A stretch of 64,000 nt of DNA from Ehretia macrophylla (lineage: Eukaryota; Streptophyta; Magnoliopsida; Boraginales; Ehretiaceae). A model generated the notes under the pieces. It made no database searches. It saw only the letters and a list, made by a program, of their open reading frames with translations, and was not told the DNA's origin. The stretch covers positions 3,539,501 to 3,603,500 of the forward strand of contig CM075765.1 of assembly GCA_037974665.1 (NCBI GenBank). The letters run 5' to 3'. This document shows positions 3,147 to 51,150 of the stretch, piece after piece; positions within the stretch are counted from its first letter, which is position 1; every line of letters begins with the position of its first letter. A program made the translations under genes and the position numbers.

Positions 3147-3192
3147 CTCGTATAAGCAAAGAAGAGAGACAAATCTGAGAGAGCGAGATATA

Positions 3193-13317: not shown

Positions 13318-16300
13318 CCATTTCGCTAATATGATATCTAATACCACCGTTAGCCTAATAACCCTAATCACTCTTATACTGTTCCATCTAGGATCGTGAT
13401 GCCACGGGTTTAAGAAGCTTACTCCTCTTAAGTCCACTAAGGCGCATTATATTAGCCCATGCACTAATAACTACTATATACCAAGTCACCATTTTATCAT
13501 CAAGAAATATATTTCTACAGGAATAGTACCTAAAGGGTTTAGATGCGACGGTTGGTCGATTGGTATAACACCCAGAAATAACTTATGCTAAAGCCATTTT
13601 CCTTGATATACACAGTAAGCTTTTCATCTTCCTCAGATGACCCTAACCCTTATAATATTATTCAAATCTAATTCCCATAGCCTAAGCTTTTCTAAAATTG
13701 AAATTCGATTGGCAGCTTAACACCATTATTAGAATTAGTGATTAACCTAATAGTATTATCGTGATAATCTTTAATGGAATCCAAAACTACCCAATTCAAC
13801 CTATTATGGTCCAATAACACAACTAAGCCTTAGATGAAAACCTAATGTCATATAGCTGAGTCTATGAACCTTAAACCCTTAATACATACATGTCATAAAG
13901 TCATAATTCATAAGTACACAAGATAAGAACACGAGTTAAATATATAATCGGGTACTAGATTCAAAATGTACCATTGTAAGTCTAGCAAATATAAACATAC
14001 CAAGTAGGCTAATAACCTACTTCAAAAGTTTACCACAGCCAACTCAAAACGTCAACATACTTAAAATACATAAACAAGATTCTAAACACAATATATACAA
14101 GTCCAAGGCCAGATAAACATCATTCCACAAACATATCAAACATCAGGCTCAACCACGACCTCCTCAATCACGTACTGCACATATTCTATTTCAGGCTCAT
14201 CTAAAATGTTAGCAACAAGAATGAGTTTCCACCAACTCAGTGAGAGAAAGGGGATAGGGGATTTTATAAAACATTTTTTAGTTGGAAACCCTTTTGAAAT
14301 CATGCCATGCAACAATAGATATGCAACAAGTACGATAATTCAATTAATTATAAGGTAAATAATCATTCATTAAGGATACGTTCGCTTCGCTGATGCTGTC
14401 TCCTTATATCATCATCACGATCATTGCCCCGTTACACCAAGCAATACTTTGTATGTATGCTAACTACGGCCCATACCCTATGAACATCCCGTTCATTTGG
14501 GTTAGGGAATAGAACATCGGTAGTCATGTCATCGCCTGGCAAACCCGATGCTGCCTAGTGCAACATGAACGCTACCACATCTATTTTATGGTTGCAACCA
14601 TCCACTTCATTTCACTTCGCTTTTTACATGAACATTTAACAAGTAACCCGCATTTACGGTAAATATTAGGTAGACACATAAGAACGGGTAACTAAGTAGG
14701 TCACTCGCTATTTACTTAACATATCATTGCTCTTGAAACAATTCCAGAAAATACACTAGGCCATTGATACACCTTAACATCATATTGGGCTTCAACGTAC
14801 AAGATAGACTACTTAAATTCAACATGTTTCATTAGTTTCACAAACATGCTTCATATTACCTTATACCCGCACGGGACATATAATAAAACATTTAGCTTGC
14901 ACTAATATACCATTAGACCACATAATTTAACATATTATCATGATTTAATAGAAACAAAACACATGCAAGGCTTAAATCACCCAAAGGATGCAAACTGATC
15001 AACTCAACTACACATGTATGGCTTTTTCCAGTTTGGTTAGCACCTTTAAAGTTCTTATAAGTTCATGAAATTGTACAGGGAGATAGTTCTTTGAATGTAG
15101 ATAGTCCTAGAATCAAATGGATCCAAATTTTGAGTTGAAATAAACAAGTTATAGTCCTTGGAAATTTGTTGCGTAGTCTGCTAGCACCAGCGTGAGTTTC
15201 CCCGACTCACTAGAATGGCTTTACTTGAGAGGGTTCTAGTCATATTTTAAGCAAACACTCAACATGATTTTTGTTCTACTATATCTTGTGCATAACATAT
15301 CCGAAAACGAGCTTCATTTGTTGAGTTTTAGTTTGTCAAAAAATCCATGCAAAATCAGTGCACAAGTTTCAAGTTAGGTTTCAGCATGCTGCAAACTCAA
15401 GTAATCATTACCTACTGAAATTGCATTTAAACATGTCTTTAACCACAAAATTTGCGCATGCACCAAACATGAGATATGCTCCATTATGAATCTAGTATGA
15501 CATATGTGAAAATTGGACAATTCCATGAAGGTCCACTACCACAAATCTAACATGCAAAGACAGTACATGAAAATTTGAGCATGCAAGCAGTAGTTGGTTG
15601 ATTTCGACCAAAAACACATCCTTAATGACAAAACTAGCACATGCACTGAACTAGAGAAATGTTCTACTATGCATTTTGTGTAACATATTCAGAATTAACC
15701 CATTTTATCAAGGTTTACTATAAGAAATATGTTAAGCAAAAACAGTACGCAGGATTTTACAATCTACCTACATTCATAGCTATCTAGCAATATCATCAAA
15801 TTTAGCAACATGAATGGCCATATAACACAATATAATGCTTACGAACTTTTAGAAAAATAGTTTATTCCCTCACCTTAGCTCTACAATGCAAGAAATAGCA
15901 AAAGAAATGGTAGAAATTAGCTAAGAATTGATTGAAATTCCAGAATTTCTTCCTTCTTCACCTTTTCTCATTTCTTTTTTGTTTTTCTATGTCCCTCTCT
16001 CTCCCTTTCAACCATGACTCTCTCCTCATTTTGAATCAGATTTGTTGTTTGTGTTGAGTGTGTTAGATAGTGGTATAAGTGATCAAAGTAAGTGGAGGTG
16101 GTTGGAGATATATTGGCAACACAATGATGATGCTTATTTTATGACAAAGTCTACTTTTACACTCCAAAGCAAGCATCAATTCACTCTTTACTCCTCATGG
16201 CCGGTCAGAGGATAGATTTTCTAATTTATTTTGTTTGTTAAGTGTAATGTATGATAGTGTAAGAGATCAATACAATGTGGTGGTGGTTGAAGATTAATGG

Positions 16301-16966
16301 CAAAACACAATCATGGCATTTTATGACAAAAGATAAGCTTATACTCAAAAGCAAAAATATTTCTCTTTTCTTCCCTTGCATGGCCGACCAAGGGCATGTC
16401 TTCTAGCTATTGACTTGTGTTATGCAATATAATAAGTATAGTGCTATAGAATGATGGCTAAGCAAGTTGCACAAAAGAGCATCATTACAATATAAAAAAC
16501 CACCTAAACACTCCAAAGTAACCAAATTTCTCTTCTTTTTCCTTGTGCATGGCTGCCCACTTGACCTTGTCATTTGCTAATTTTCTTAGCCAAGTTTAGT
16601 ACTAAGTGTAGAGTTAATGCCTAGTGTCACACACCAACTAGTTAGATAGGAGCTTGGTTAGTTGCTAGCTAGTTAGTTATAGTTAGTGATTTAGCTACTA
16701 ATCAACTGTGAGACTCCGAATTTGCCTTATTTGTACTTACTTGTTTTCTCCTATTTAACTGCTATTAGAATTAACATGCATGTATATATGTGATATTAAA
16801 TGATCTTAGATTAATTGTGGATTTAAAAGACATTTGAAAAACTAATAATGTGATTTTTCATCTTCTTTTGCACAATTGAGCATTATACCTTAGTTGTATG
16901 TAAATATATGCTTATGTATATTGTTGTCAACTAAATATAGCCTACTAAATATATAGTATAAGTTAG

Positions 16967-17009
<43 letters not shown>

Positions 17010-17349
17010 GACTATTTTTGGCAAAAAATCAACTAAAACAACTAATTTGTCAACTTTGACCAAGCATTATATGTTTGACTTTGCCATATATATGCCATTA
17101 TACATACAATATACACATACCAAGCTCAAAACACCTCCAATTCTTACACACTTGGCTGTGGCTTTCATGGAGGAAGAAGAAAAATATTTTTAAGGTTTTC
17201 AAAGTTATTTTTTGAAGAAAAACTTCATTTCAAAGTCAAATATTTTCATTCCAAGCTTGTTTTTGCTTGTTAGGCACCTATACTACCTATTTCTAGAATT
17301 TCTGTGATCAAAGGTGAGGGAAAAACATCCTATTTTTAAAGTTCATGTC

Positions 17350-20300
17350 TGTCATGCCCCAACTCGACCCCACCTACGATTAATCAGGACGTAAAGGAAT
17401 TTCGGTAGTATAACGATAGTAACACGGATACCAGGGCTCTAAACCAACCCTTTTTAACTTCATACGTCCAACTCCAAAGATCAACAAGAAGTCCATAACT
17501 TTTGTAACAACATACAACACAACCATTTTTATATATATTCAACAACCATACAACAATTCATTCATAAGTTATATGCCTCCATTCCAACATCAATCCATAG
17601 GCTATATTATACATTGCCAAAATAGGTTATAAACCATTCTAGCAATCTAATCATGTTCAAAAGAAAGACTACTAAACTAGCATAATATAAGTCTCTAACT
17701 TAAGTAAGTTATACAATACATCTTACTACAAAGACTAAGACAAACTCATGGACACGACTCCGGCACATAAGACTCGTCCACATAAGGCATATTCTCAGCT
17801 TCCTGAGGCACATACCCATAATCCTGTTCAGTAATACCTGAATGTAGATAACGAATGAGAGTGAGCTTATATAAAACAAGCCCAGTGAGGAATTCGATAG
17901 ATCTTTTGAACACATATACCTTACCACCTTGGAAGTTATCCACGAGCTACAACACGCAATTAACACTAATAACAATACAGATATAACAACAACAGTAAAC
18001 ACACAATAACGATACAATACACTTGTTGATGAAGCTCCAGACACCATTTTCAATACTCACCAACTCCTTCAAACCCAATGACACAATCCTGAGGTACCTA
18101 GACCTAGACCCATACCCCATGGCCTCTTCACCCATGCGAGATAGGGAGTAGTCATGATAACTGTGCCGGCAGCCCAGGATGCATCCTCCAGAGGTGACAC
18201 AACATTATAAAAGCTCACAAAAATGTGACTTAATTCGAGAAGTCAACAACGAGGGTTGCCCGACTCCCGACACTTCAACAATCAACAATCAGCTAATAAT
18301 GTAACGCCCCGGATTAACCCGAGCACGCTACTAAGAAAGTAATGTCCGCTTTGGCTACACCTCAGATTAGTCCCGAGCGTGCTCCTCACGATTTTGCATC
18401 AACAATCAATTAAATAGGTAATGTCCACTTTGGCTACACCCCGGATTAGTCCCGAGCGTGGTCCTTATAGTTTTGTATCAACAATCAATTAAACATCATT
18501 TAAACAATCAACAACTATACAATTCTAAATCAATTAAGCTAGATGACAAAGTAGGTTATCCAACTCAATAAGCATTTAAACAAACATTCAACCCCGATCC
18601 CAATCAACAACAATCCAAGAATCAACTACCCAAACACTACCCAAACAACCCAAGACAATATATCAACATTTTAAAGAAAAGCTATACAAACTTATAAAAT
18701 TCATAACTTACATTCTACTAATCCAATAACCTCCAAACCACTTCCTATCACTCCACCACACATGCAATTACATTAGCCGCATCGGAAACCAACCAAGTGC
18801 CACCCAAATCAAGCCCAACAACCCTAATTTAGCAATGCACCAAGGATGATTTTTCCAAACTTTTTCTACAACATTCCAATCAAAAATTCGGCATTACAAT
18901 ATTACTACCCCATAATTAAAAAACTTTTAGAAGCAACAACCAATCAATTCCAACCACTACAATAACAGTTATTCAACAATGAACCTAAATTCCAATTTTA
19001 ATACCCGAAAAATAGAAATACATGCTACTACTATTCAAAACTTATATAAATGCACATAAACGATCCTTGGCATCTACTGAGCAATAATATAACAACAATT
19101 TAACATTTGATCGAATAAAAATTCAATTATATAAAAATGACATAAAATAGCATTTTAAGATCTAGAATTTTTCTCTCACCTCTGATGCAAAATAAGGCTA
19201 TAAATAGGTAGAATAGATGCCCAACAAGAAAAATCATGCTTTGAATGACTCAATTCGGCTTTGAAATGCAAAATCTATGAAAACAATGCTTTGAAAAACC
19301 TTGAAAATGTCTTCTTTCTTCTCCCTCAAGGGCTTACTATTTTGTGGTTGTTTGTGTGGTATTTTTGGCTGAAATTGTTAATATATAAGTTAAATGAAAA
19401 GTCAAAGCAAGACTAAATGGTCAAACTTGGCAAAAATTAAGTTTATAATGCAAAAGACTAAGTTAACCCTCATTTTCAATGCATTTTTCAATTGTTCTAT
19501 TTTAGAAATATTCAAAATGAAATATAATTTGTATTTAACATATACTAGGTCGATGAAAGTCAACACAATAATCGTTTTGAGTAGAAATCACTATTTTAGC
19601 TAAAAAAACGCTACTTTTAAAGTCTATTTTAAATTCCTAATTTGTTTCAGAAATAATTTATAGTAAATCACGGGTCTTTTAATAATGGAGGAATATTTAT
19701 TAAAATGTTTAAAAGACTAGTTTAAAAAATTTAGCGAAAAAGTCTTCAAATACCATTTAACGGCACTTTAAATGAAATTTTCTCCAAAAATGTTTATAAA
19801 AATTTTATGAATGCACATATATCAAGTAACAGGAGTAGTATTTAAATAAATCTAGTTTGGTCAAATAATATAAAAAGTCAAAGTCAAAGGAGACAAAAAG
19901 TCAACATTTTTTCAAAAGTCAAAGTTAATAAAAGTCAACATTTTTCAAAAAGTCAAAGTAAATAAAAGTCAACATTTTTCAAAAGCCAAAGTAGATGAAA
20001 AGTCAACGCAATAATCGGTTTTAATAAAGTCAAAGCTAGAAGTCTTGGTCAAAGTTGATAACTTAAGCTATTTTAGTTGTTTTTGCCAAAAAATAGTAAT
20101 ATTAATACTATCCAAAAATACTATTTTTTTAGTAGACTATTTTTGGGGACAACATTTATTCATAAGCATTTATTTACATATAGTCTAGTTATACTACACA
20201 ATTTTACAAAAGAAAATAAAAAGTCACATTATTTATTTTTCAAATGTCTTTTAAATGCACATTTAATGCAAGATCATTTAATAACTCACATATAAACATA

Positions 20301-20373
20301 TATACTAATTATAATAGTATTTAAACAAGGGAAAACACGTAATTCCAAATAGGGCAAATTCCGGGGTCTCACA
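17350..20373 (-). mobile_element. solo LTR F (3024 bp), a relative of E inserted antisense in E
   Basis: Perfect TSD ATGTC (17345-17349, 20374-20378); the uninterrupted site is seen in the 3' LTR of E at about 26817. Read on the minus strand it begins TGTGAGACCCCGGAATTTGC and ends GGGGTCGAGTTGGGGCATGACA-like sequence, so it belongs to the same broad family as E and L. It is longer than its relatives partly because of tandem units at about 19871-20010. No internal genes, hence a solo LTR. Confidence 0.88.
19871..20010. repeat. tandem units with core AAAGTCAACATTTTTCAAAA
   Basis: About four degenerate copies of a 35-40 bp unit alternating AAAAGTCAACATTTTT with CAAAAAGTCAAAGTWAAT. They lie in the 5' part (sense orientation) of solo LTR F and have no coding potential. 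Confidence 0.75.
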
Positions 20374-21928
20374 ATGTCAAATTTTTATTTTTGCATATAT
20401 AGTTGTTATTTTGTTAAATTGACTTAAGATTGTTGTTAGTTAGATGTCGTAGACCAACTTAGTGTAATTATAGCCAATTTAAACGATAGGAAGTTGTATT
20501 TTTATTTTCCTTGTATTGTTTGGATAATTTGGCTATATACTTGAATAATTGTTGTTGTAGTGGTTGTTTTTAGGTTGTAGTTGCTTCTATAGACTTGTTA
20601 ATTATTGTGTAGTAATGTTGTAATGCCAACATTTCAATTTGAATGTTGGATTAAAAGTAAAACATTTCAGCCCTTGGAGCATTACCATTTTGAACTTGTT
20701 GGCCTTGTATTGGATGGCTTTTGGTTGATTTCTGAGGGGGTTTATGTAGTTAGTTGAGTGGTTAGGTGGTAGGAAAAGGTTCGGGGGTTGTGTGATTCCT
20801 AGATTGGAGGTAATGTTGGTTAGAAGCTTGGGAAGTCTTTCTCTGAATTTGCAAAGGATTGTGTTTAATGGTTTGGTGTTATTTGGGTAGTTGAAATGTG
20901 AGTTGGTGTTAACTAGGCTCGGGTTTGAATGTGTGTTGAGTTTGGATGACCTACTTTGTCTCTAACTTAAGTGTTTTAGAATTGTGTAGTTGTTGATCGT
21001 TGAAGTATTGTTTAATTGATTATTGAATGTTGAAGTGCCGCGAAACAACTTACTTTGTTGTTTTCTCAGAATATAAAGTGTTAAGTGTTAATTGTTCTAA
21101 GTCACGATAATATTATGTTACCTCAAGCGGTATTGGACTTGCCAGGTTACATTGGCATTATCATGTGTTATCCCCTATCCTACATGATCGAAGGATATTC
21201 ATGGGGTGTAGGTCTAGGTTGGTGTATTTTCGGAATGCATTTGGTGCATGGTTAGGGTTTGTGATTGGTGCATGGGGAGAACGGTTTCAACAGAACAAGT
21301 GTATCGTATCTTTATTGTTTGGTTACCTATATGGTTATATTTGTATTGTTGTTGATGCTTGTTATGTATTCAATGTTCCTAGGGTATTTTCCAAATGAAA
21401 ATGTTTCCAAAACTTCATATTGAACCCTCGCTGAGCTTTGTTATATATAAGTTCACCCTCTTTGCTGTCCTTTCAAGTGTTCCAGATTTAGGGTACGTGG
21501 AATATGTGCCGTCAGATAATATGGACAAGCTCGAGGCTTGAATGATTGCTTGGATTCTTTATATGTTGTCCCTGAATTAATAATATGTTGTGTTGTAGTA
21601 GGTTTCAAAGTTTGTAATGTATAACTTACTTTAAAAGTTTAATGGATTGTATAATGCTAGTTTAGTAGTCTTTCTTTTGGTTATGAATAGGTTGCTAGAC
21701 TAGCTTAATATCTATTTTGCATATGTATAGTATGGTTTGATGTATGTTGTTGAGATGAAGGTATTGTATCTTGTTGTTTAAATGTTGCTTGGTTGGTTTA
21801 TGAAAGTTTTTGGTTGGGTTGTTTGTTGTTGAAGTTGTTGTTCGAGTTGTGGTTGGTTGTGGAGTGTTTGTAGAGAACCAGTTTAAGGTTTTGTTGTGGT
21901 TGGAGTCGAGTTGGGGCGTGACATTTAG

Positions 21929-21940
21929 TGGTATCAGAGC
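21929..21940 (+). other. primer-binding site of E (initiator tRNA-Met type)
   Basis: TGGTATCAGAGC, five bases after the 5' LTR end, is the complement of the 3' end of plant initiator tRNA-Met. This is the minus-strand primer site used by many plant Ty3/gypsy and copia elements. Confidence 0.9.
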
Positions 21941-21980
21941 ATGATTAACTTGTAAGCTAGGGTATCCTTGGAATGTTGGT

Positions 21981-24646
21981 TGTAACGCCCGTGAATTTTA
22001 TCATATCTTTTTTAAATAACTGTTATATATTTACCTGAGCATTCTTATGTGCATCTCTTTTCTTGCTTAATTGTTTTATTTTAAGGCTACTATTCACATG
22101 AAATTTGACTGTTTTAAATGGTCGATTTAATATTTTTCCTAGATAAAATGGCATATAAAAGGAATCGAAAACTTGTCGTTTTAGACTTTAGAGGCCGGGA
22201 GTATGAGTTTGAAAAATAATTTTTGGCTTTTTTTGAATAATGTTATGTAGGTAAGCATTATTTTGAGTTAGTTAGCAATTAAATTGGCATTTTAATGTAG
22301 TTGACCAAGATTTTAGTGGCATTTGACCAATAATATAACACCTACACAAATATATATATCTAAATTATCCTATATGCATAATACTCACCAAAAATAAGAG
22401 CCAAAAAATAACCCAAAAAGCCCCCCCAAACCCATCAACCCCATGGAGCAAAACAAAGAGAAATTTTCATCATCCAACCTTGCTATAGCCTTCTTGGCTT
22501 GATCTTGGAGATTCTTGGAGCATTTAGGAGGATCACTACCTTGCTTATAACTACAAAATTGTGAGGGAATTTACATTTGTTGCATTCTAAAGTTTATGTT
22601 CAATTTTGTAATTTTTGGATTTTGCCATTAATGTGCCATAAATGCTTGATTCTTGTTCTATATGGTATTATTACATGCAAGAGACCTTCTATATGCATTG
22701 GTATAGCTTGAAACTAAGTTTTTGACAAGATTTCACTTGAGGAAGATGATGATGAATAGTGCCAAACTAGGGTCCATGAGCGTGGAAAAAATGTTAATTG
22801 TACTTGCTATGTTCAAAATTTGAGAAATTTGATTAAAATAGGCTACTTTAATAAGGGGTTTTGGGGTTAACCCGAATCCGGGCATGTTTCGATGTCATGG
22901 CTAGTCTTTATTAAGTAATGAAACCTTAGAAGTGCCCTCGTTTCGCTTGTTTAGGATCCGAAATTGGTACTTGTAGTGTAAACCCACAAAGAGGTATTTT
23001 CGGTGTTTTCGTGTACTCATGCTCTAGGATATGAATTGGAGGCTCTAGATGATACATTTAGGTACCCTTGGATTAGTAGTATAGCTATCTTGCTTATCTT
23101 GACCTTGAATTTCCGGTAGAAAGCAAAATAGCCTAGTGGAACAAGGAGGAAACTCAGGGTTTTCATGCTTAGCCTTTGAATTAGCTTTTGTACTTGTATA
23201 TCTCACCTTTATATGTTATTATATAGCATTTGTGAGCATTTCGTGAAGTTTCATGATCATGGGACATTGACCCCTTTGTGTTCGTATAGTTATTTTCATA
23301 TTTAATACTTATATCTTGTTATAAAGACTATATTACTTGTACTTTGTTAAAGATCAAATTCTAATAGACATTGTATGCTAAGTGAGTAGGACTATAAGTG
23401 ATTATAAATATAGCTTCTATTGTTGTAGGTTTGAGTTAAGTAATAGTTAAGTTGGAATTGATATAGTTACTGCTAAAGTGCTGAACTTATATGAACACAC
23501 TAAGGCTACGTATTCGAGAAACTTTGAAGTGAATCGGAGCTATTTTCTTGCATGCTTGGCTTAATTCTAGGTGAGGGAGTCTTTAACCTTTCTGTGCATC
23601 TTAGTTTATTTTATTGTTTTTAGATTATATGATTTAGCTAATTGATAAAGTTACATGTACCATTTATTTGTTATCTCATGGTTATTCGTGTTTGTTTGAT
23701 ATTATCTCATGAATTCTTGAATTCGTGTCGGGTTGCACAACCTTTTCAGACATGGTAGCGTCGAGAAATATGGGCGGCGTCGGGCTTGCCGTGCTCCCTC
23801 GACTACTATGGTGCCTATTTCCTTTCTCGCTGAGTATACTCTACTACCCCAGAGGTATGGTTCACCTGCTAGGCATATGAACCTACCTCAAGAGAAAGGG
23901 TCGTAGGATCGGGGTACATCCGGAGTACCCCAATTTGGAAGAGTAAGGGTTTGCCGGCACTTGCGTGAAGTTCGTGGTTCATGGTACGAGATTGAAGACT
24001 TGAAGTGGAATCGTATTCTTTTAATATGTGGTTAATTACCTGTTTACTTGGTTGTGTTATTTGGTGTTGGAAATGCTATTATTCTGTTGCATATCATGTT
24101 GCACGCCCCGGTTTGTTGCATCACCTCCCTTACTGGGTAACTTTGGTTACTCATTCCTTGTTTGAACATGTTACAGGTGCAGTTAGAACAACTACCTTGA
24201 GTGTTGTGTTGCTGGTTGCTTATCTTGCTGAGGTTGAATCCCTTTGAAGATGTGTGTTATTATATTATGTCTTATTTTGAGACCTTTGAGGCCTTGTATA
24301 TATTAATGATAAATTTTGTGGGTTGTAATTAAAGCTGTAGTCTTGAATATTTAGTGGCTTTGTTGGCATGTAATAGCTAAAGATATACTTTATTGTCTTT
24401 TGATTGCATGCTCGTGTGGTTATGTTTTTTGTCTAAGGCTCAGATGGCCTTGGGACTGGGAAAAGTGGGACAATTGGAGTAGGGGTGTTGTATTGTGGTT
24501 ATACTTACTGCTTGCAGGTTTTTGATTAGTCCTATAAATAGGGGAAACTCCGTCTGTTCTCCCTAAATTTTGTGACCGGGTTGGAATTGGGTTGTGTTTA
24601 GCTTGGCTATTAGAGTCCCGGTTCCGTGAGGGATCGGGGCGTTACA
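21981..24646 (+). mobile_element. solo LTR C (2666 bp, Tekay-like) in E just after its primer site
   Basis: Starts TGTAACGCCCGTG and ends ATCGGGGCGTTACA; flanks TTGGT (21976-21980) and TGGGT (24647-24651) differ at one base. It shares with A, B and D the terminal block around AGGGGAAACTCCGTCTG (24540-24556), here preceded by TATAAATA (24533-24540). It separates the primer site of E from its gag start. Confidence 0.85.
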
Positions 24647-24845
24647 TGGGTAGTGGTCTTAGCATGAATACATGTACTAAGTGAAAAGTGAAATATATAT
24701 TAATGTGTTTATGTGATTAACTTACTTTCGTGATTAACTTTCTATGTGATCTACGTGCCTTACGTGAACCTTATTTCGTAAATGTTATTAACTGTCTATA
24801 GCATGTATATGTGTTATAACATGTGGCTAATTCTTTGATAGTAAG

Positions 24846-26150
24846 ATGGCTGGCCATCCAAATACTCGAGGTAGACCACAGAGGGGTGATGATGATTTGG
24901 GGATGAGGCTTAGGCTGAGATCCGGGTTATGATTGTATAACTATGGCTATGGACCGTATGACGGAGGTTCTAGCTAGGCAGGCTTAGATTTTGGCGGGTC
25001 AGGCTGCACAGGTGCATAACGTGCAAGGTAACATTGATCGTGGGTTTAATGCAAGAGGTAGTTACCGTGGGGGTAGTTTGCTGAAAGAGTTCCTAGGGTA
25101 CATGCCACCGAGATTTCTGGGTGAGCCCGATGATGACAAGGCCGAGGCCTAGGTGACTAGGATTGAGAAGATTTTTTATCCTCTTGACTATACCGATGAT
25201 AGGAAGGTTACTTTTGCTATGTTTCTCTTTCATAACGAGGCAGAGCAATGGTGGCATACGGTGAGAATGAGATGGGCAGCTCAGGGTACTCCTTATCTTT
25301 GGGCTAGTTTTCTTCGAGAGTTTTGAGCTAAATATATTCCGAGGATTGCCAGAGAGTACAGGGAAGAGGAGTTCATATCCCTTGTTCAGGGTAATTCTAC
25401 TATGGCCCAATATGAGGCCAACTTTACTAGGCTATCTCGTTATGCACAGACTTTGTGCAAGACCAAGAATGGAGGACCTGGAAGTTTATTCAGGGTTTGA
25501 GGCCAAAGCCTTAGGATTCTATGGCCTTATTGGAGTTTGATGAGTTTCCAGCAGCTTTTAATGCAGCTTCCAGATTAAAGAAGATGAAGTTAGACCAGGC
25601 CGGTTCTAGTCAGCCGAATAAGACGCTATTTTAGTCTCAAAGCCAGAGTCAGCAGCGATCTTTCTCAACCCAGGATCAACAGAGGTATTATCAACCCTAT
25701 GTCCAGTTAGATGATCAGCAACAATTTTATCAGCCTTCGAGTCAGTTAGACCCTATTTCCAGTCAGTCACAAGGGCTGTTTAGGCAGGTACCAGTGAGGT
25801 CTCAATCAGGGCAGACCCAGACTCAGGGCCAGAGTAGACCAGCTAGTATGAGGTTCCAGCAGGGCGATCCAGTTGGTTCGTTAGCTCCGAGCACTACAAG
25901 AGGTGATATTGCTCTTAATGTTCTATTTTGTGCTTTCTGCAATAAGAAGGGCCATAGGGAGGCCAACTGTTGGAGGAAGTCTAGTAGACGTACAGGTGGT
26001 GGTAGTGACCAGCATAGGGCAAAGGAATGCCTGAAGTTTCAGACTAGTCAGGGGCAATCGATAGCTAGGGGTAACAAGAGTAGTCTTGGCAGTTATTGTA
26101 CCTCTACTGCCTCGTGTTCATACCAGAGCTTATACCGTTGATCTGTGGGC
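24846..26150 (+). pseudogene. broken gag of element E
   Basis: Starts MAGHPNTRGRPQRG, matching the gag start of element L (MAGRPRTRGRPE). A stop follows within 30 codons and more stops lie after. Recognisable pieces in order are: the LLKEFLGYMPPRF..EPDDDKAE segment (about 25079-25150), the retrotransposon-gag core with WWHTVRMRW (about 25250-25275), a Gln-rich linker (25620-25870), and one zinc knuckle CAFCNKKGHREANC (about 25931-25972, CX2CX4HX4C). Normal Tekay gag-pol would continue into protease and RT. Here sequence jumps within about 230 bases to the polypurine tract, so pol is deleted. Confidence 0.82.
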
Positions 26151-26203
26151 TTATTATGAGGGTAAGAATTGCACGGACGCAATTGTTTTAAGGGAGGAGG
26201 GAA

Positions 26204-28082
26204 TGTGAGACCCCGAATTTTCCTTATTTGCAATTACATGTTTTCACCTGTTTAAATGCTATTAGAATTAATATGTATGTATATATGTGATATTAAATGA
26301 TCATAGATTAATTGTGCATTCAAAAAACATTTGAAAAACTAATAATGTGAGTTTGCATATTCTTTTGCAAAATTGAGCATTATACCTTAGTTGTATGTAA
26401 ATATATGCTTATGTATATCATTGTCAACTAAAAATGGCCTTCTAAATATATAGTATAAGCTAGATTATATATATATGACTATTTTTGGCAAAAAATCAAC
26501 TAAAACAACTAAGTTGTCAACTTTGACCAAGCCTTATAAGTTTGACTTTGCTATATATATGCCATTATACATACAGTATACACATAACACGCTCAAAACA
26601 CCTCCAATTCTCATACACTTGGCCGTGGCTTTGAAGGAGGAAGAAGAAAAATATTTTCAAGGTTTTCAAACCAACGTTTTGAAGAAAAACTGTATTTCAA
26701 AGTCAAATCTTTTCATTCCAAGCTTGTTTTTGCTTATTGGGCACCTATACTACCTATTTCTAGCATTTCTTGGGATCAAAGGTGAGGGAAAAACTAGATC
26801 CTATTTTTCAAGTTTATGTCAAATTTTTATTGTTGCATATATAGTTGTTATTTTGTTAAATTGACTTAAGATTGTGTTGGGGATATGCCCTAATGCTAAA
26901 GTTTGAGATGACCTTTTTAGGGTTTAATAAGAATATGCTTATGTGTTTTATACACTATGTGATTTGAAGGATATTCATATTCTTCTCTTTGATATGAATA
27001 TGTCTCTAATGTTTATCCGAGAAGAGAAATGTTCTAAAAGAGGATATTTCACACTTTCTCTTAGATATGATAAGCATTAAGAAACAATTCATAGCCCTTC
27101 AGATTATTCGACCGGGACTAGAATAATCGAGTACTGGTTATCATATGTTATTACTTTTGATTAACATGGTGATGTTAATGATAAAGGATGACATGCGAAA
27201 TGCCAAAAGAACATGGTGATGTGGACTAATAAACATATGAGTGATCGTCTGTGTACAGATCATTGAATGTGACAATAAATAGTGAACTATATGATTTTAA
27301 GTTAGTAATTTATTATTTAGTTGAGAATTGTGCAAATTAATCATCAGATTTGAGAGATTACGGCTGCCGGTCATATCAGGGGCTAAATACTGAGTCTAGA
27401 CAATGCCCGTCTTCTACAAGTTGGGATATGGCTTTTCGCGTTTTAGTCTTGTGGTATGAACCGACAGGTAATTGTCAAGTTAGGATATGTTAACCTCCAG
27501 CATGAGGCGATGTCTTGACCAAGACGAGTATGAAGTGATGGAAATGGGTTTTTCCATGGTAGTCATCTCTTGTTTTACCGATTCAGATTTATACATAGTA
27601 TCGGATATGGGCTTAACCATTTCATGGTCCTTTCCCGATCGGGGAACTTGTAACAGAAGGATCGAACTGCACGCTAATTCTCGACGATTAAATGGATTCA
27701 TGAAAGAAGTCGTCTTCATTATCGTTTACATTCTTATGATACGTTCGTTGCTAGTGCGTCACTTATGAGCATGAGGGTAATTTGGTAAATGACGGAGATA
27801 TTTTCGAAATAGATAAGGAGGTTTATCAGGTCCTTCATCGGTACGCGATTATGAATCTAGAAGGTCACACATTAACAAGTATCATGAATAAGTTCACCGG
27901 GAACTTGTATAATGTGGTGAATGGCTTTAAGGTGTTAAGAGTCATCTATGTTGGTATTTAGGCCAAAAGTGTAATTTTGAAAAGTTTTGGGGTCAAATTG
28001 TAATTACCAAAACTTTTGAGGCCAAACTATAATTATTGAAAAATTGTTTCAATATATTTATTCTAATAGAGATTTGAATTGG

Positions 28083-28142
<60 letters not shown>

Positions 28143-32943: not shown

Positions 32944-33086
32944 ACACTAAGGACACATGGCAAAGCAAAACTATGGCACATAGCATGATCACATTTCAAA
33001 GTCCACTACCTTATTCTTTTTCCTTACTATGGCTGGTCAATAAGGCCACTTTTTCTTTATTATTTTGTTTTGTCATGCAAGCTAAT

Positions 33087-33137
<51 letters not shown>

Positions 33138-33358
33138 ATGGTGGTTAGTCAAATGGTCAAACCTAGGTCAAAATAATGTCTTCTAAGTCAAAATTGCTAA
33201 GTCAAAAGTCAAAGTCATTCTAGCTAAGCTAATTAAATTATTTAAAAGTGCTAGAAGACTACTAGATTATAATTAACATCTAATTCAACAGATAATGACA
33301 CATAAAATCACGTAAATGCACCTAGGATTATGTCGGGACTTATATCTTCCACCCTTTA

Positions 33359-34270: not shown

Positions 34271-34275
34271 TCCAT

Positions 34276-40826: not shown

Positions 40827-40838
40827 AGAAGAATCCCC

Positions 40839-41651: not shown

Positions 41652-41663
41652 GCTCTGATACCA
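41652..41663 (-). other. primer-binding site of L (initiator tRNA-Met type)
   Basis: Minus-strand TGGTATCAGAGC, six bases inside the 5' LTR boundary at 41670, identical to the site of E. Confidence 0.92.
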
Positions 41664-41669
41664 CTTAAA

Positions 41670-44048
41670 TGTCACGCCCCAACTCGACCCCACCTACGAT
41701 CAGTCAGGACGCAACGGAATTTCGGCAGTATAACGACAGTAAATAGAATACCGAGGTTCTAAACCAACCTCATTAATAACATTAAACATCCAATTCCATA
41801 ACCATACAATCAACAACTCCTCAACAGCATAGCAACACACAACATAACTGTAATATACAATAATCAGTACTCGTTATCTGCCTCCGTTCCAACATAACAT
41901 ACAATACCTCAACCTTATCATACATTTCAAAAATAAGTTGAGACCCATCTAACAACTTAACCATAGACAAAAGAAAACCACTAATTTAACATCATTTGGA
42001 TCATCATCTTTTCAACATCTATTACAATAAGAACCATAAAGCATATAAAAGTCTATTAAGCTAATATACATGACATTAAACAACATAGAATCATGGATAA
42101 GACTCAGGGACATATGACTCATCCACGAAAGGCACATTTTCCTCCTTAAGAGGCACGTACCCATAATCCGGCTCTGCAACACCTGTAAGCATGCAATAAT
42201 AGAGAGTGAGCTTATATAAATAAGCCCAGTGAGGATCCGATAGATCTTGATAGTGTTCACTATGCTCCTTGGATTTAGTCCTTTGAGCAAGTAAATACAC
42301 AACAACAATAATAACATTATCATCATATAACTATATAACCATTCAATAAAGGATACTCTATTTGGTGTAGCTCCAAACGCCATCACGATCTCAACCGTTC
42401 TTCTTATAACTCCCCATTACTCACGCACCTGAGGTACCTCACTAGCCCCTCCCTCCATGACACCTCCGTCATGCGAGCTGGGGGTAGCCTATGGCAGTCA
42501 TGCCTTTATCAACCCGACAGCCCAACGCTGCCCGAGAGGTGGCACACACATACCAAGACTCCATAATCATCATCAATCATCAATCAATCATCAATTATAC
42601 ATCATTGATAGCATCAATAATCATTTAAACAACAATAACTTAGTTAGATGACAAAGTAGGCCACCTAACTGGACATGCATTATAAACACAATTAAACCCT
42701 AAATTACCCATCAACAACTCACCATTCAACACTCAAACACCACCCAATCATCTAAAGGCATCATTCAAGAAATTAAAGAATGACAACCTAAACTTCAGAA
42801 ATTCATAACTTACATTCTACTAACCCAAACATTGCCAAATCAGTTTCTATCACTCACCCATTCAACCTACTACATTAGCCCTCTCGGAAATCCACCACAA
42901 CACCTCCAAATCATGCCCGATAACCCTAAAACCCTAGGATGTCTTGGCTGGATTTTCTGGATTTTCCCACGAGCAATGTAATCGAAAATTCGGCATTACA
43001 ACAGCGCTAACACGTAATTATCAAGTATTTAGAAATCGACGGCAATCGATTTCGAGCAACGCAACTCAATTAAATCAACTTTGAACAATTTAATCTAAAT
43101 TAAATACCCGGAAAATAAAAATTATGCTATATCCGACAGAAACTCGTAGTATTAGCATAGAAAGATTCCTAGCATGCAAGGAGCAATAATCTAACATCAG
43201 ATTACAATTCTAACGGTTCAATCTTCATTTATACGCAAAAACACAAAAATGGCATTTTGAGATCTAGAATTTTTCTCTCACCTTTGATGCGATAAAAGCC
43301 TAGGGATGCATGAAGTGCATGCCCAACAAGCAGAATCCAAGTCGGTGCGAAGTTTTACGGACAAAAACCAAGTTTTTCTTTGAAAAATTGATTGAAAAAG
43401 CTTGAAATTCTCTTTCTTTTTTTCCTCCTCTTCCTCTCGGCCTAGTGTGTGAAATTGGATGTGTTTTTGTGTTATGTGAGTGTGTGTAACTAGTGTGAGC
43501 ATAAACAGTTAATATATAAAATAGTTTAAGTTATAAAAACTAATTAATTTTTGTGTTTTATTGACTTTAAACTCATTTTATTGCTCACCAAGGCTCAAAA
43601 TAATTATGCAACCCCCAAGATATCTCAAGTGGATTATTTTTAGGTGATAAGAAGTTTTACATTCAAAGAATTCCACCCGAGTCGGCTTAAAACTCAATTT
43701 TTCGCAAAAAGTGGTGTAAAAACCCTAATAAATTCCTAAGCCGATTTGAAATCTATTTTTATCAATCACAGGTCTATTAAAGTCTATGGACTAGGTCTTG
43801 AAGGGTTAAAAAGACCAGTTTCAAAATTTTAGCGGACGTGCGCCCAAAATACTATTCACTAAAAGACGACGATAAAATTTATGATCCCGTTTTTTATGAA
43901 AATTTCATGAATGCACATTTAGCACGTATTAGGAGTATTGACATCAAAATTATAACTTTCTAGGTCCTATAGCACATAAACAGGTCATATGCATGCAAAA
44001 CGAGGTATAGCACGTAAAACGAGATAAGCAGAAAAGTGGGGTTTCACA
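41670..44048 (-). repeat. 5' LTR of L
   Basis: Plus-strand ends TGTCACGCCCCAACTCG...GTGGGGTTTCACA. Most differences from the 3' LTR are transitions. Contains the same embedded frame with AEPDYGYVPLKEENVPFVDE (about 42091-42180, minus). Confidence 0.95.
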
Positions 44049-44053
44049 TCCAT

Positions 44054-44305: not shown

Positions 44306-44526
44306 CTTCTAACCAAAAGTTATTCTTAGGTTATATCACATAGACAAGTTATAAACACTTAAAAACTCATATGAAACAATCTAGCAAAAGCATATCAAGC
44401 ACGTAAAGTACGTTGTTCACATTTTATCCATTGAACATAACACACAAATGTACCTATTCAAAATTGGTTCATGTGAAAACTTCTACCCCATAGTCTGAGA
44501 GTTCTAACCCGACCTATTCAAACTAT

Positions 44527-44538
44527 GCTTTGATACCA
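44527..44538 (-). other. primer-binding site of K, one base changed
   Basis: Minus-strand TGGTATCAAAGC differs from the tRNA-Met-type TGGTATCAGAGC of E and L at one base, a G-to-A transition consistent with age. Confidence 0.85.
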
Positions 44539-44541
44539 TCA

Positions 44542-47500
44542 TGTCACAACCCTATTTCGCTAATATGATCTCTGATACCACCTTAGCCTAATAACCCTAA
44601 TCACTCCTGCACCATTCAATCTGGGATCGTGATGCCACGAGCTTAAGAATATCACTCCTCCTAAGTCCCCTAAGGCACATTACGTTAGCCTGTGTACTAA
44701 TAACTACTATATACCAAGTCACCATTTTATTATCAAGAAATACATGTCTGTAGGAATAGCACCTAAGGGGTTTAGACGCGACGGTCGATCGATTGGTATA
44801 ACACCTAGAAATAACTTATGCTAAAGCCATTTTCCTTGATATACTCAATAAGATTTTCATCTTCCTTAGGTAAGCCTAACACTTATAGTACTATTCAAAT
44901 CTAATTCCCATAGTCTAAGCTCTTCCGAAATTGAAATTTGATTGGCAGCTTAACATCATCATTAGAATCAGTTATTAACCTAACAGTATTATCACGATGA
45001 TCTTTAATTAAATTCAAAACTACCCGATTCAACCTATTATGGTCCAATAACACAACTAAGCCTTAGATGTAAACCTAATGTCATATAGATGAGTCTATGA
45101 ACCCTAAACCCTCAATACATACGTGTCATAAATTTATAATTCATAAGTACACAAGATAAAAACATGAGTTAAATATATATATCCGAGTACTAGATACAAA
45201 ATGTACCATTGTAAGTATAGAAAATATATATATATACCTGTAACACCTTGACCCCCCACGGAATCAGGTTCCTAATCCCAAAACCCCAACTCACAAAAAA
45301 TGAGAGAAAATAGACAGAGTTTCCCCTATTTCAAATCCAAACCAACCTGCACGCAGAAGAATCATCACACAAGAAACATTGTATTTTAACATGATTTAGT
45401 CCATTCTAGTTCATTTCTTGTTCATTTAGTAGTTCCAATACTTCTCTTAGCAAAATAGACTGTAAGTGTTCTAGGTTAGTTCACTACCAACCAAAACATT
45501 AGCCAAAATATTACATGCCACTATTCTATGTGAGCCTTCACTTAGTTACATTCTTTATAACTAAAAATATACACAAGGCACCCAGGCCTAAAAAAGAATA
45601 CATAAACATTCACAAATTTACAAGGAGTATCTACTTAAAAACATAGCAACACTCAAGGTGATGTTTTAGCCTCCTCCTCCACAGACTCAGGAGGGATTGA
45701 ACCTGTTTTACTTGAAAATGTTGGATAACAGGGAGTGAGCATACACTATACTCAGTGAGGGAGGGAAACATTTATCCGGGGAGTTTTCAAAAATATTTCG
45801 TGCAATGCATTCAAGCAATTTTAAAGTTAAGTAAATACATACTAAACAATACACCTTAAAAAGGATACGGGTGGACAAGTATATAAAATAATCACGCGAA
45901 TACAACGTCAATGCAAGGTAACATCCAAGAACATGAAACTAGATAACACATATAAAAGGATACAGTTCTGATTAACCCTATACACTCCAAGTTAATAATC
46001 TTGATCGCGAACCTCGAACCATAAACCACGTACTACCAACAAGTTTTGCCGGCATATTCCCAATCACCAATGGGTACTCCGAATGTACCCATAATCCTAC
46101 GACCTAACACCCATTGGCAATCTCCAGGTTAGGCAAGCGAGAGACTACAGAGTTAGAGCAACCAACCCTGGCAAGCTCGCTGCCGCTTAGAGAGGCCCAT
46201 CGCATCTATCCCGACGATAAGGTTGCGTAACCATCGATATGATACCCAATATAACAATAAATATCATAATCACATAATTCAAGGTAATCAATATCACGTA
46301 AACGAGAGACAACAAAGTAGGTTGTCCTCGATCACATACAACATAACATAATAATCAATGTAAGCAATAAACTACACAACATTCAATTCATATTCATATT
46401 CTCATGGATATCTTTCATATCCATCTAACAACACCACTTTCTATTATATTTCAAACTATTCAATCACATTTAACCCAACTTTGAAACACTAGAGCTAACT
46501 TTATAACGATTAATTAAGGCATCTACACAATGAATAAACTTCAAAAGTATACAAGACAACTCCTATCCACTAACTAAACACAAACCTACCTCAATAATAC
46601 ATACACACACATGGCCTTGATAAACTCACCCAATTGTCCCTATGCTCACATACTCGCACAATGAATTCTAACTACATTCTAATCATTTCAAGCATTAATT
46701 TAGCATTATGAACATTTATGGCACAAGAGTTTAGCATTAAAGTAAGCAATTTACTTATTAACTACATCAACTCATTTATGTTCAAACCAATATCAACATG
46801 ATCTAATCAATATTCATTCATTTTAAGCTTCATTCTAGTTTATACAACACTTATGACACAAGTTTTTACCCATAGATTAAGCATTTAGCCACAAACTACC
46901 ATAACCCTTTTATGACCAAACCACCATTACCAAGTTTTAACCAAGATCTAGCCATTTCATGCATTATTATAGGTTCAAGGACATTTATGGAACACAATAG
47001 TAGCATAGAAACAAATAGATAGCCATTAAACACCAATTATGCCTAAAAATCACAATTCATCTTTTTCTAGATTACACCATTTTATAAACACCAATTACAA
47101 GCTTGCTAAACCTATAAGACTTGTTCTACTATCCATAAAACTCATAATCTTGCAAGGATAAGCTAAATAAACAACATATAAACCATAATAATTTCATGGC
47201 ATAATCATCAACTAACAAGAAAATGCAACAATATGCAAATCCCTCACCAATACTAGTTGAGAATGCTTGGAATTAGCTTGGAGTGGCCTTGGATCAACTC
47301 AAAATGGCTTGGATTGGACCCTAGAAATATATCCTTGTTTGCAATTCTCTTCTTTTTCTCTCTTATGGCCGATGACCAAACTTTCTCGCTCTTTCTTTTT
47401 TTTTATCTTTTGTTTTTCATTAATAGGTATTACAAGGTTAATATTACATGGGCTTGGGTCTTTGGTATTGGTTTTGGGCTTAGTAAATTATTAGGATGAC

Positions 47501-50500
47501 ATAAAATGGCTCAAAGTTTAGTTAGTTCAATTAAAAGTCCAAAATACAATTCTAGTGTTACTATTCCTACGGTACCAAGAATATTTTATAACTCACTCTC
47601 CTGACATGCAATGCACAAAACAACAATGAACGAATACTTGGAAACAAGTATATAGTAAGGGAAAAATATAGAATTCACAAACTAAAATACTTTAATTTTT
47701 ACCCGGGGCTCAGGGCTCATTTTTAAATGATAAAAATTGATTCATCAGATGTAGGGAACAATTGCACATAATATAAATAAAAATAATAATAGATTAAACA
47801 TTTTATTTGAATTAATTAAATGTTAGTTGCACATTTAAAAGAAATAGAAAAAGTAAGGTTACTAAATACATACAAAAGTTAAAATAAACACATAAACTCA
47901 CACAAAATCAATTAAAATAACACATAAACATATGCAAATAGACACTATTTACTACATGCTAGGTCCGGGGTGTCACAATACGAAGTAGGCCAATAACATA
48001 CTTCAAAAGTCTACCACAGCCAACTCAAAACGTCAACATACTTAACATACATAAGCAATATTCTAAACACAATATATACAAGTCCAAGGCCAGATAAACA
48101 TCACTCCACAAGTATATCAAACATCTGACTCAACCAAGACCTCCTCAATCACGTACTGCACATACTCTATTTCAAGTTCACCTAAAATGTTAGCAAACGA
48201 GAATGAGTTTCCACCAACTCAGTGAAGGAAAGGGGATAGGGGATTTTATAAAACATTTTTTAGTTGGAAACCCTTTTGAAATCATGCCATGCAACAATAG
48301 ATATGCAACAAGTATGATAGTTCAATTAATAGCAAAGTAAAGAATCATTCATTAAAGATTCGTTGACTTCACTGATGCCATCTCCTTATATCACTATCAC
48401 GATCATTGCCCTATTACACCAAGAAATACTTTGCATGTATGCTAACTACGACCCACACCCTAAGAATACCCCGTTCATTCGGGTAAATGAATGAAACATC
48501 AGTCGTCATGTCATCGCCTTGCAAGCCCGATGCTGCCCAATGCAAAACAGACACTACCGCATCTATTTTATGGTTATAACAATCCACTTCATTTTGCTTC
48601 TCTTTTCACATGAACATTTAACAAGTAACACGCATTTACGACAAATATCAGGTAGACACAAAAGAATGGGTAACGAAGTTGGTCACCCACTCATTACTTA
48701 ACATATCATTGCTCTTGAAACAATTCCAGAAAATACACTAGGTCATTGATACACCTTAACACCATATTGGGCTTCAACGTACAAGATAGACTACTCAAAT
48801 TCAACATGTTTCGTTAGTTTTATAAACATGTTCCATATTACATTTTACAAGCACCGGACATGTAATAAGACATTTATCTTGCACTCATATACCATGAGAC
48901 AACATAAGTTAGCATATAATCATGATTTAATAGCAACAGAACACAAAAAGGCTTAAATCACCCAAAGGTTACAAATTGATCAACTTAACTATACATGCAT
49001 GACTTTTTCTAGTTTGGTTAGCACCTTTAAAGTTTTATGAGTTCATGAAATTATACATGGAAATATTTCTTTGAATGTAGATAGTATTTGAATCAAACGA
49101 ATCCGAATTCGGAGTTGAAATGAGCAAGTTCTAGTCCTTAAAAAAATTTTGCACAGTCTACGAGCACCAATGCGAGTTTCCCCGACTCACTGGAATGGCT
49201 TTAATTGAGGGGGTTCTAGTCACATTATGAGCAAACACTCAACTTGATGTTCGTTCTACTATGTCTTGTGCATACCATATCCAAAAACGAGCTTCATTCG
49301 TTGAGTTTTATTATGTTAAAACATCCATGCAAAATTAGTGCGCAAGTTCCAAGTTAGGTTTCAGCATGCAGTGAACTCAAGTAATCATTATCTACTGAAA
49401 TTGCATTTAAACATGTCTTTAACCTAGAAATTTGCTCATGCACCAAACATGAGATGTGTTCCGTTATGAATATAGTATGACATATATGAAAATTGGCCAA
49501 TTCCATGAAGGTTTACTACCCCAAATCCAACATGCAAAGATAGTGCAGAAAAATATGAGCATGCAAGTAGTAGTTGGCTGATTTCGACCAAAAACACATC
49601 CTTAATGACAAAACTAGCGCATACATTGAACTAGAGAAATATTCTACTATGAGTTTTGTTAAATGCAAATGGAATTCAGCCATTTTCATCAAGGTTTACT
49701 ATAGCAAATTAGTTAAGCAAAAATAGCACCTAGGATTTTACAATTTGCTACATTCATAGCTATCTTGCAATATCATCAAATTTAGCAACATGCATGGCCA
49801 TATAAAACAATATAATGATTATGAACTTTTAGAAAAATAGTTTATTCCCTACCTTAGCTATGCAATGCAAGAAATAGAAAAAAAATGGTGGAAATTGGCC
49901 AAGAGTTTATTGAAATTCCAGAATTTCTTCATTCTTCACATTCTCTCCTTTCTTTCTTGTTTTTCTCTCCCTCTCTCTCTCCCTTTCAGCTGTGGCTCTT
50001 TCCTTACTTTGAATCAGATTTGTTATGTGTGTTGAGTGTGTTAGATAGTGGTATAAGTGATCCAAATAAGTGGAGGTGGTTGGAGATTTATTGGCAACAC
50101 AATGATGATACTTATTTTATGACAAAGTCTACTTTTACACTCCAAAGCAAACATCAATTCACACTTTACTACTCATGGACGGTCAAAGGCTAAATTTTGC
50201 TGATTTATTTTGTTTATTAAGTGTAATGTAGGATAGTGTAAGAGATCAATGCAATGTGGTGGTGGTTGAAGATTAATGGCAAAACACAATCATGGCATTT
50301 TATGACAAAAGCTAAGCTTATACTCAAAAGCAAAGATATTTCTCTTTTCTTCCCTTGCATGGCTGGCCAAGGGCTTGTCTTCTAGCTATTGTCTTGTGTT
50401 ATACAATATAATAAGTATAATTCTATAGAATGATGGCTAAACAAGTTGCACAAAAAAGCATCATTACAATATGACAAACCACCTAAAACACTCCAAAGCA

Positions 50501-51150
50501 ACCAATTTTCTATTCCTTTTCCTTGTGCAAGGCTGGCCACTTGGCCTTTTGATTTGCTAATTTTCTTAGCCAAGTTAAGTATTTAGTGTAGAGTTAATGC
50601 CTAGTGTCACACACCAACTAGTTAAATAGGAGCTTGGTTAGTTGCTAGCTAGTTAGTTATAATTAGTGATTTAACTGCTAATAGAAGATTAACTAGGAAT
50701 TAGTTATTTACTTAATTAATTACTTAATCATATTGGAGTAAAAAGACAACTAATCTGGAAAATATAGTACAAATGACAAAGAAGCTAAACACTAAGGACA
50801 CATGGAAAAACAAACTATGGCATATAGTATGATCACATTTCAAAGTCAACTACCCTATTCTTTTTCCTTACTATGGCCGGTCATTAAGGCCTTTTTTTCT
50901 TTATTATTTTGTTTTGTCATGCAAGCTAATTAATAAATATATTATTGTGGCTAGTCAAATGGTTACACCTAGGTCAAAATAAGGTCTTCTAAGTCAAAAT
51001 TGCTAAGTCAAAAGTCAAAGTCATTCTAGCTAAACTAATTAAATTATTTAAAAGTGATAGAAGACTACTAGATTATAATTAACATCTAATTAAACAGATA
51101 ATGACACATAAAATCACGTAAATGCACCTAGGATTATGTCGGGCCCTACA
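44542..51150 (-). repeat. 5' LTR of K, split by solo LTR D
   Basis: Pieces 44542-45238 and 47983-51150 align with the left LTR along their length. Ends are TGTCACAACCCT and GTCGGGCCCTACA. The block near 48130-48195 carries the embedded frame with IEYVQYVIEE. Confidence 0.9.
45239..47977 (-). mobile_element. solo LTR D (2739 bp, Tekay-like)
   Basis: Starts TGTAACACCTTGACC and ends GGTCCGGGGTGTCACA. Flanks ATACC (45234-45238) and ATACG (47978-47982) differ at one base, and the unbroken K LTR at about 13998 reads ATACC AAGTAGG, confirming the original site. Related to A, B and C by the terminal and mid-LTR conserved blocks. Confidence 0.87.

Follow-up and report, generated by a model that had tools for sequence, protein, structure and literature searches.

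A predicted intron and a candidate terminal coding exon in the long terminal repeats of Ty3/gypsy elements from Ehretia macrophylla

Elements of the window and the layout of their repeats

The window analysed here, a stretch of 64,000 nucleotides (nt) from Ehretia macrophylla (contig CM075765.1; C2:3539501-3603500 in a genome of 1.58 Gb and 20 contigs), contains P450 coding pieces and nested Ty3/gypsy retrotransposons, and this report concerns a layout resembling an intron and a short last coding exon in the long terminal repeats (LTRs) of the latter. LTR pairs were defined by self-comparison of the window. The element referred to as L is complete and has its sense on the minus strand, with a 3' LTR at 34276-36654 (TGTGAAACCCC ... 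GGGGCGTGACA) that is 97.6% identical to the 5' LTR at 41670-44049. The polypurine tract (PPT) lies directly upstream of the 3' LTR, and the end of the 5' LTR is followed by TTTAAGTGGT, as is found before the primer-binding site (PBS) of L033, another genomic element considered below. Of the others, K, E and A/B occur interrupted or in scattered pieces, D as a solo LTR (45235-47977) and F as a lone LTR nested in E; E is gag-only, its zinc-knuckle frame being followed directly by the 3' end and the PPT.

The domains of L follow the order of plant chromoviruses of the Ty3/gypsy group (gag, protease, reverse transcriptase (RT)-RNase H, integrase), with Pfam matches to Retrotrans_gag, RVP_2, RVT_1, RT_RNaseH, Integrase_H2C2 and SH3_Tf2-1. 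The rve match reaches 28.4 bits, under the cut-off of 32.6, and the C-terminus of the integrase gives a weak Chromo match (E = 0.00044, 20.6 bits, under the 25.1-bit cut-off). Because of these domains, together with the weak chromodomain match, L is regarded as a chromovirus-type element; Tekay is likely for these elements as a label only.

On the sense strand, the LTRs of L, F, K, D and A/B present CTCACTGRG, a branch-point-like CTCAY, a YAG and a short frame, in this order. A first-pass annotation made from the sequence alone had described such a block, followed by a pyrimidine stretch with YAG and a short frame closed by a stop, in K, L, E, F, C, D and A/B, and had quoted five peptides. The block is indeed found as CTCACTGGG at 42233, 34839 and 17889 (minus) and as CTCACTGAG at 45759, 14244 and 9330 (minus), the sequence after it is as described, and all five peptides are present (L 34783-34724, F 17829-17773, E 21491-21517, K 14198-14160, D 45697-45656). 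The block in B reads CTCACTTAG. E belongs to the group in a degenerate form (CTCGCTGAG / CTTGTTAAG), in which the acceptor CAG reads CAA in the 5' LTR copy and the second CTCAY is missing from the 3' copy. C was removed from the group, as no similar sequence comes after its CTCACTG at 31561 (minus). A/B share the splice layout, with a frame, GNAMLAGKFVVT / GNALLAGKFMVT, that is not acidic and bears no relation to the others. The statement that these LTRs are otherwise poorly alignable proved too strong, since pieces of the L, F and E LTRs align at 68-73% over 0.2-0.8 kb.

The layout reaches further upstream than had been noticed. GTGAGR follows a leader that ends in AAG or GAG in L, F, E and K, and in L and F a TATA-like stretch and an A-rich leader come before it; the upstream donor candidates of D and A are weaker. 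With a GTGAGR donor and a YAG acceptor, the LTRs of L, F, E and K would each hold an intron of 1.1-1.7 kb; its predicted length is 1084-1433 nt among 67 copies of the L/F type and 1673 nt in K. The donor of the L 3' LTR, CATCAAAG/GTGAGAG, lies at 35886/35887 (minus; 43281/43282 in the 5' LTR) and its block at 34831-34839 (minus; starting at 42233 in the 5' LTR). The predicted intron of F, from GAG/GTGAGAG to CATTCAG, occupies 17838-19179 (minus, 1342 nt), the donor of the E 3' LTR, GATCAAAG/GTGAGGG, is at 26781/26782 (plus; 17313/17314 in the 5' LTR) and that of K, GCTAAG/GTGAGGG, at 15873/15874 (minus). The usual plant branch-point form is CTNAY, and the distance from the putative branch A to the acceptor is 24 nt in L and F, 21 nt in the E 5' copy, 22 nt in K, 25 or 33 nt in D and 21 nt in A.

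Both halves of the layout are abundant in the genome. The pattern CTCACTGAGT-N8..20-CTCACTCC gave 5516 and 5557 matches, 11,073 in all, and its reversed control none; the 100 matches listed look like the A/B type, and D of the window fits the pattern too. The 22-nt donor sequence GTGAGAGAAAAATTCTAGATCT has 12,360 exact genome copies, and none for its control; it has no match in viral contigs. An Rfam scan returned nothing reaching gathering thresholds.

The candidate exons, hereafter exon 2, differ between families. In L it follows TTACAG at 34697-34788 (minus; 42091-42182 in the 5' LTR) and encodes [G]VAEPDYGYVPHEEENVPFVDESYVPESYP before the stop; the coding part in F, at 17746-17837 (minus), encodes [G]ITEQDYGYVPQEAENMPYVDESYVPESCP and a stop. 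Exon 2 of the E 3' LTR (30334-30398, plus) reads [G]VPDLRYVEYVPSNNMAKPEG and a stop, and in the 5' LTR copy (21477-21541) the acceptor AG reads AA. In K, after CATTTTAG, the frame at 14136-14200 (minus; the other LTR copy starts at 48181) reads DEPEIEYVQYVIEEVVVEPDV and a stop, and D has a candidate coding part at 45653-45702 (minus), [G]SIPPESVEEEAKTSP and a stop, with CAAG and ACAG as possible acceptors. The exon of A, after CATTTCAG at 9242-9279 (minus; B copy 54137-54174, plus), reads [G]NAMLAGKFVVT and a stop, and the acceptor of this type is kept in 21 of 22 copies, the window pair included. The frames of K, D and E are acidic and in the same phase as those of L and F, and these two features suggest that they too may be coding.

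Splice sites were scored with approximate matrices. The predicted donor and acceptor are the best-scoring sites of the scanned LTR in both L and F, and in K only the donor ranks first. The acceptor AG is kept in 62 of the 67 L/F-type copies, and the 66 nt before it are the least changed part (27 internal-branch changes, compared with 136 in the 90-nt frame), without a codon pattern, as expected of a splice signal. The conserved DYGYV of L and F is itself coded by GG/GTAYGTG (34766-34767, minus), a strong donor-like sequence scoring 8.88 in L, and a still shorter exon using this site is conceivable.

Selection on the L/F frame and elements lacking the intron

Copies of the L/F type were picked by the exact donor 22-mer, so that the conservation of that donor cannot be judged from them. 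Sixty-nine were obtained (66 fetched loci and three copies in the window), and exon 2 was located in 67, L009 and L024 being dropped for want of a recognisable one; 64 of the 67 lie within the initial 24 Mb of a single contig, the remaining three in the window. Parsimony changes in the 30-codon frame were counted by codon position (1/2/3) on a tree of the exon-2 region. Internal branches carry 28/33/75 (permutation p = 0.0001); terminal branches, which reflect the decay of copies, carry 49/42/53 (p = 0.24). The next 60 nt downstream of the stop have no codon pattern (53/57/51, internal branches). The third-position bias on internal branches is found again with an intron-based tree (36/51/114, p = 0.00035).

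The ratio of nonsynonymous to synonymous substitution rates (dN/dS) points the same way. Between L and F of the window, dN is 0.135 and dS 1.80, a ratio of 0.08, and the median over 1042 non-independent pairs with dS > 0.4 is 0.20; the other two frames have medians of 1.15 and 0.90, with stop codons skipped and a somewhat different pair filter. These values come from the 54 of 67 copies that are ungapped and stop-free, and leaving out the 13 others favours open copies. As measured on genome copies, the L/F frame is under purifying selection.

This selection cannot be accounted for by a joined leader and exon 2. The leader frame in phase with the exon shows 28/43/35 internal-branch changes in the 67 copies, hence no codon periodicity, TAA arises at the leader/exon 2 junction in 6 of 67 copies, and the K frame is closed at that junction. 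Leader exon 1 was therefore rejected as the coding source, and leader splicing itself was kept as a predicted event.

A junction pattern joining exon 1 to exon 2, fixed before the genome search and allowing two mismatches, gave four genomic matches and no control match. Three of them (L029, L030 and L031) are exact leader/exon 2 joins belonging to two elements, and the fourth, L032, was discarded as an unspliced LTR in which a short stretch is deleted. L033 (2199-5991, reverse complement) has L030 and L031 as its LTRs, at 2199-3466 and 4724-5991, each of 1268 bp and 97.2% identical to one another; this element has a PBS, a PPT and the target-site duplication AACCT. L033 is thus a copy that transposed with intronless LTRs. 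Its internal part measures 1.26 kb and shows no recognisable gag or pol on reading.

A candidate coding donor at the end of pol or gag

The reading that we favour, with moderate confidence, is that plant Ty3/gypsy LTRs of the chromovirus type carry a built-in intron, and that the LTR exon would serve as an alternative acidic tail of Gag-Pol or Gag, reached through a GTAAG at the end of pol or gag. We infer splicing in cells, the use of this coding donor and a function for the tail, the likeliest being the tuning of integrase or Gag.

In L the donor-like site reads CATCAA/GTAAG (36694/36695, minus) in phase 1 (A/GT AAG) and stands directly upstream of a hairpin, AATTTCGAGGACGAAATT (AATTTCG..CGAAATT, 36672-36689, minus), whose exact version has 1347 genome matches and which lies just upstream of the PPT. 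The first nine pol ends all have GTAAG, followed at once by the hairpin (AATTTCGAGGACGAAATT or a close variant of it) and the PPT. In a sample of 41 hairpin ends (40 fetched and the window copy, which is also among the first nine), 37 align to L pol and were picked without regard to GTAAG; 36 of these have it. The pol frame upstream is clearly coding (19/12/68 internal-branch changes over 240 nt), and pol GTAAG and LTR exon are both in phase 1. The frame of L also continues for about 100 nt into the LTR, as a stretch distinct from the conserved tail.

A phase-1 GTAAG likewise stands after gag, before the hairpin and PPT, in the gag-only E and L086, the phase resting on similarity to L gag because the E gag frame is broken and that of L086 has stops. 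The site of E, TATGAGG/GTAAG (26161/26162, plus), precedes the hairpin AATTGC..GCAATT at 26167-26184 (plus); the exact version of this hairpin, which lies just upstream of the PPT, matches the genome once, in the window itself. In K the site reads GCAGA/GTAAGAATTTC (33385/33386, minus); the frame of this pol copy contains stops, and phase 1 was assigned by alignment to L. The hairpin stem is kept through paired changes, as seen from AATTTCG..CGAAATT in L, AATTGC..GCAATT in E and AATTGCG..TGCAATT in L033.

The four sampled ends outside the pol count are L086, which has GTAAG, L079 and L102, which do not, and L110, where it is shifted to GTAAGT. GTAAG is absent from L033 and L079, with no gag or pol before the hairpin on reading, and from L102, which has in-frame stops throughout; L110, of another pol-bearing type (C1:123655210), has AG/GTAAGT before the same hairpin and a stop codon at that place. 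In this small sample, the LTRs of L079, L102 and L110 (L114, L115 and L117, the last being that of L110) lack CTCACTG, and the LTR of L086 (L116) has it.

In the mechanism that we propose, CTCACTGRG...CTCAY...YAG would constitute a 3' splice site with its branch point, pyrimidine stretch and acceptor. In the 5' LTR this acceptor would pair with the leader donor AAG/GTGAGR and remove 1.1-1.7 kb of leader, and in the 3' LTR the same acceptor would take a second donor, the GTAAG at the extreme 3' end of the gag-pol or gag frame, removing the hairpin, the PPT and U3. With both sides of the junction in phase 1, the LTR exon would become the last coding exon, adding an acidic C-terminal tail (..DYGYVPHEEENVPFVDESYVPESYP in L), its own stop and a 3' untranslated region. 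The resulting pol/exon-2 RNA would be translatable but unfit as a normal template for reverse transcription.

Several observations weigh against this reading, or against parts of it. The leader donor scores 9.00 and the pol donor 6.89, and the former is also nearer to the acceptor, which makes efficient use of the latter less likely. The K acceptor falls outside the ten or six best-scoring acceptors of the part scanned, and the predicted D and A sites outside the six best of their LTR pieces. In the window copies of K and E the gag/pol frame is broken and phase 1 rests on alignment. AGT AAG encodes Ser-Lys, so that protein constraint could by itself preserve GTAAG. A genome search for pol/exon-2 retrocopies found no junction, its sole match being an unspliced LTR, although a spliced RNA lacking PPT and U3 would account for their absence; a genome search for a K-type leader/exon-2 junction gave no match either.

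The remaining adverse points concern the intronless copies and the frame itself. AGGTG stands at both cut sites of the intronless copies, so that a deletion by microhomology is possible; the L LTR contains 906 identical 5-mer pairs spaced 900-1400 bp, which makes it unlikely, though not impossible, that deletion would have struck this exact pair twice. On the intron-based tree, third positions are in excess on terminal branches too (67/81/120, p = 0.003). The contrast between internal and terminal branches therefore depends on the tree, and a difference between live and dead lineages stands on less firm ground than selection as such. Of the 67 copies, 12 have a stop within the first 28 codons of the phase-1 frame, as against 6 in the +1 frame and all 67 in the +2 frame; as the +1 frame is open more often, openness alone is no evidence of coding. 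Finally, the phase-1 frame of A/B has 9-12 non-acidic residues and no coding sign by inspection of 22 copies, and that of the gag-only LTR L116 is merely GEAETKP. With A/B keeping the layout and K, D and E having acidic frames, the splice layout is more widespread than the coding tail.

The alternative that survives best, though we hold it to be unlikely, is that unspliced LTR RNA yields a microprotein of its own, beginning at an in-frame ATG upstream of the acceptor (in L, three codons before it, MLTGVAEPDYGYVP...), with the CAG being incidental. Such an ATG lies three codons upstream in 59 of 67 L/F-type copies and four codons upstream in 2 of 67; further upstream, with the frame open in between, one is found at 13 codons in D, at 25-27 in E and at 34 in one K copy of two. 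However, in F, A and B of the window and in the second K copy, reading upstream in frame reaches a stop without meeting an ATG, and the place of the ATG varies among families; with no start codon common to them, a coding donor elsewhere is simpler. The upstream 66 nt are moreover conserved without codon periodicity, a leader-derived transcript would carry more than 1 kb ahead of the frame, and two elements have lost the intron precisely. A small accessory peptide had been offered by the first-pass annotation next to a 3' exon of a spliced transcript and an RNA-level signal. Purifying selection on L/F, combined with a CAG that has the features of a 3' splice site, makes the 3' exon the better of these readings, and the peptide is less likely in spite of the ATG near the acceptor in 61 of 67 copies.

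A further alternative to the donor that we favour is that the exon is spliced to a different one, such as a site where gag ends; the product would be a shortened Gag carrying the acidic tail, in the manner of the spliced short-Gag RNAs known from EVADE and BARE. We consider this improbable. Splicing of this kind is described for plants in the excerpts seen of PMC12786077, L has a phase-1 AAG/GTAACT at 40069, near the gag-protease border, and gag-only elements retain the LTR exon, but the gag-only E and L086 keep GTAAG just before hairpin and PPT, and 40069 is a single-site candidate. It is very improbable that the arrangement as a whole is an RNA-level signal, either a leader-intron splice site or a core promoter (TATATAAG before CAG), with a frame open by chance: the low change before the acceptor, the presence of TATATAAG there in L, F and E and the layout of A/B without coding evidence agree with it, but the dN/dS of 0.08 and the strong third-position bias contradict it for the L/F frame, and TATATAAG is absent from that place in K, D and A, for which reason its core-promoter reading was set aside. 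For A/B taken alone, a purely RNA-level signal remains the likely explanation.

A wider version of the favoured reading is put forward tentatively. One LTR acceptor may have two roles: in the 5' LTR it would remove a leader intron in which a folded element for packaging or export resides, directing spliced RNA to translation and unspliced RNA to packaging, and in the 3' LTR it would switch the C-terminus of Gag-Pol or Gag to the acidic tail, the LTR being a coding and splicing module common to abundant chromovirus-type families. A folded GC-rich module does lie inside the L LTR intron (35052-35168, minus). RNAalifold on 54 copies gives an energy of -24.1, compared with -15.8 (standard deviation 3.2, minimum -23.6) for 100 column shuffles, and the pair changes are mostly one-sided. 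The module is suggestive only as a candidate cis RNA element kept by the unspliced RNA alone, and a role in packaging or export is a guess. In retroviruses the donor lies just after the leader, a folded RNA module is found inside the intron, and the unspliced RNA is genomic. The predicted arrangement resembles this in its donor just after the leader and its folded module in the intron, and differs in having donor and acceptor both inside the LTR.

Relation to known elements

The comparisons made here draw on excerpts of the cited papers. In CRM group A, the C-terminal part of the polyprotein, with the CR motif, is encoded in the 3' LTR by a frame extending into it (PMC3059260), and the gag-pol open reading frames of Beetle7 and Bingo1 from beet also extend into the 3' LTR (PMC3605345). 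The elements studied here would be like CRM group A in coding a C-terminal protein part inside the 3' LTR. They are unlike it in that the CRM frame is contiguous ('splic' has 0 occurrences in the excerpts of PMC3059260), whereas here an acceptor-like site precedes the conserved exon, and the hairpin, the PPT and about 1.9 kb of LTR stand between it and pol. The weak Chromo match of L is at the integrase C-terminus; the CR motif itself was not searched for.

According to a 2025 review (PMC12786077), introns are generally absent from plant LTR elements, Ogre and EVADE being among the exceptions. Ogre, a plant Ty3/gypsy element of the Tat lineage, has an intron that only some of its transcripts lose by splicing (PMC12786077, PMC6317226), and it resembles the present elements in this respect, their intron being predicted. 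The intron of Ogre lies between gag-pro and RT, and the protease and RT domains of L, which share a single open frame of 640 amino acids, speak against an intron of that type. The short-Gag splicing of EVADE and BARE (PMC12786077) and the env-like splicing of Bagy2 yield a second protein form; unlike here, an LTR-borne terminal coding exon goes unmentioned for them in these excerpts. A literature search in which few subscription journals were covered gave no report, in the excerpts, of an LTR-borne terminal coding exon. In sunflower, Tekay elements are missing from the expressed set (PMC7730604, excerpts), which may be one reason why such RNAs went unnoticed.

Plant retrotransposon LTRs are treated as non-coding regulatory repeats. 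If the favoured reading is true, a selected exon and a predicted intron are present in the LTRs of thousands of copies, and annotations miss part of a protein. Solo LTRs would moreover scatter splice acceptors and short coding exons across the genome, and the long-standing question of how RNA is split between translation and packaging would become directly testable by long-read RNA sequencing.

Two further observations concern the architecture of the interrupted elements. E (16707-30831) appears gag-only, with F inside its 5' LTR and the C insertion inside its 3' LTR, a nesting that would account for the scattered repeats D5, D6, D12 and D13. The LTRs of K are very long, about 3.9 kb by summing the aligned pieces 13308-16702, 32943-33342, 44542-45234 and 47978-51148; both are interrupted, and scant K internal region remains apart from the L insertion.

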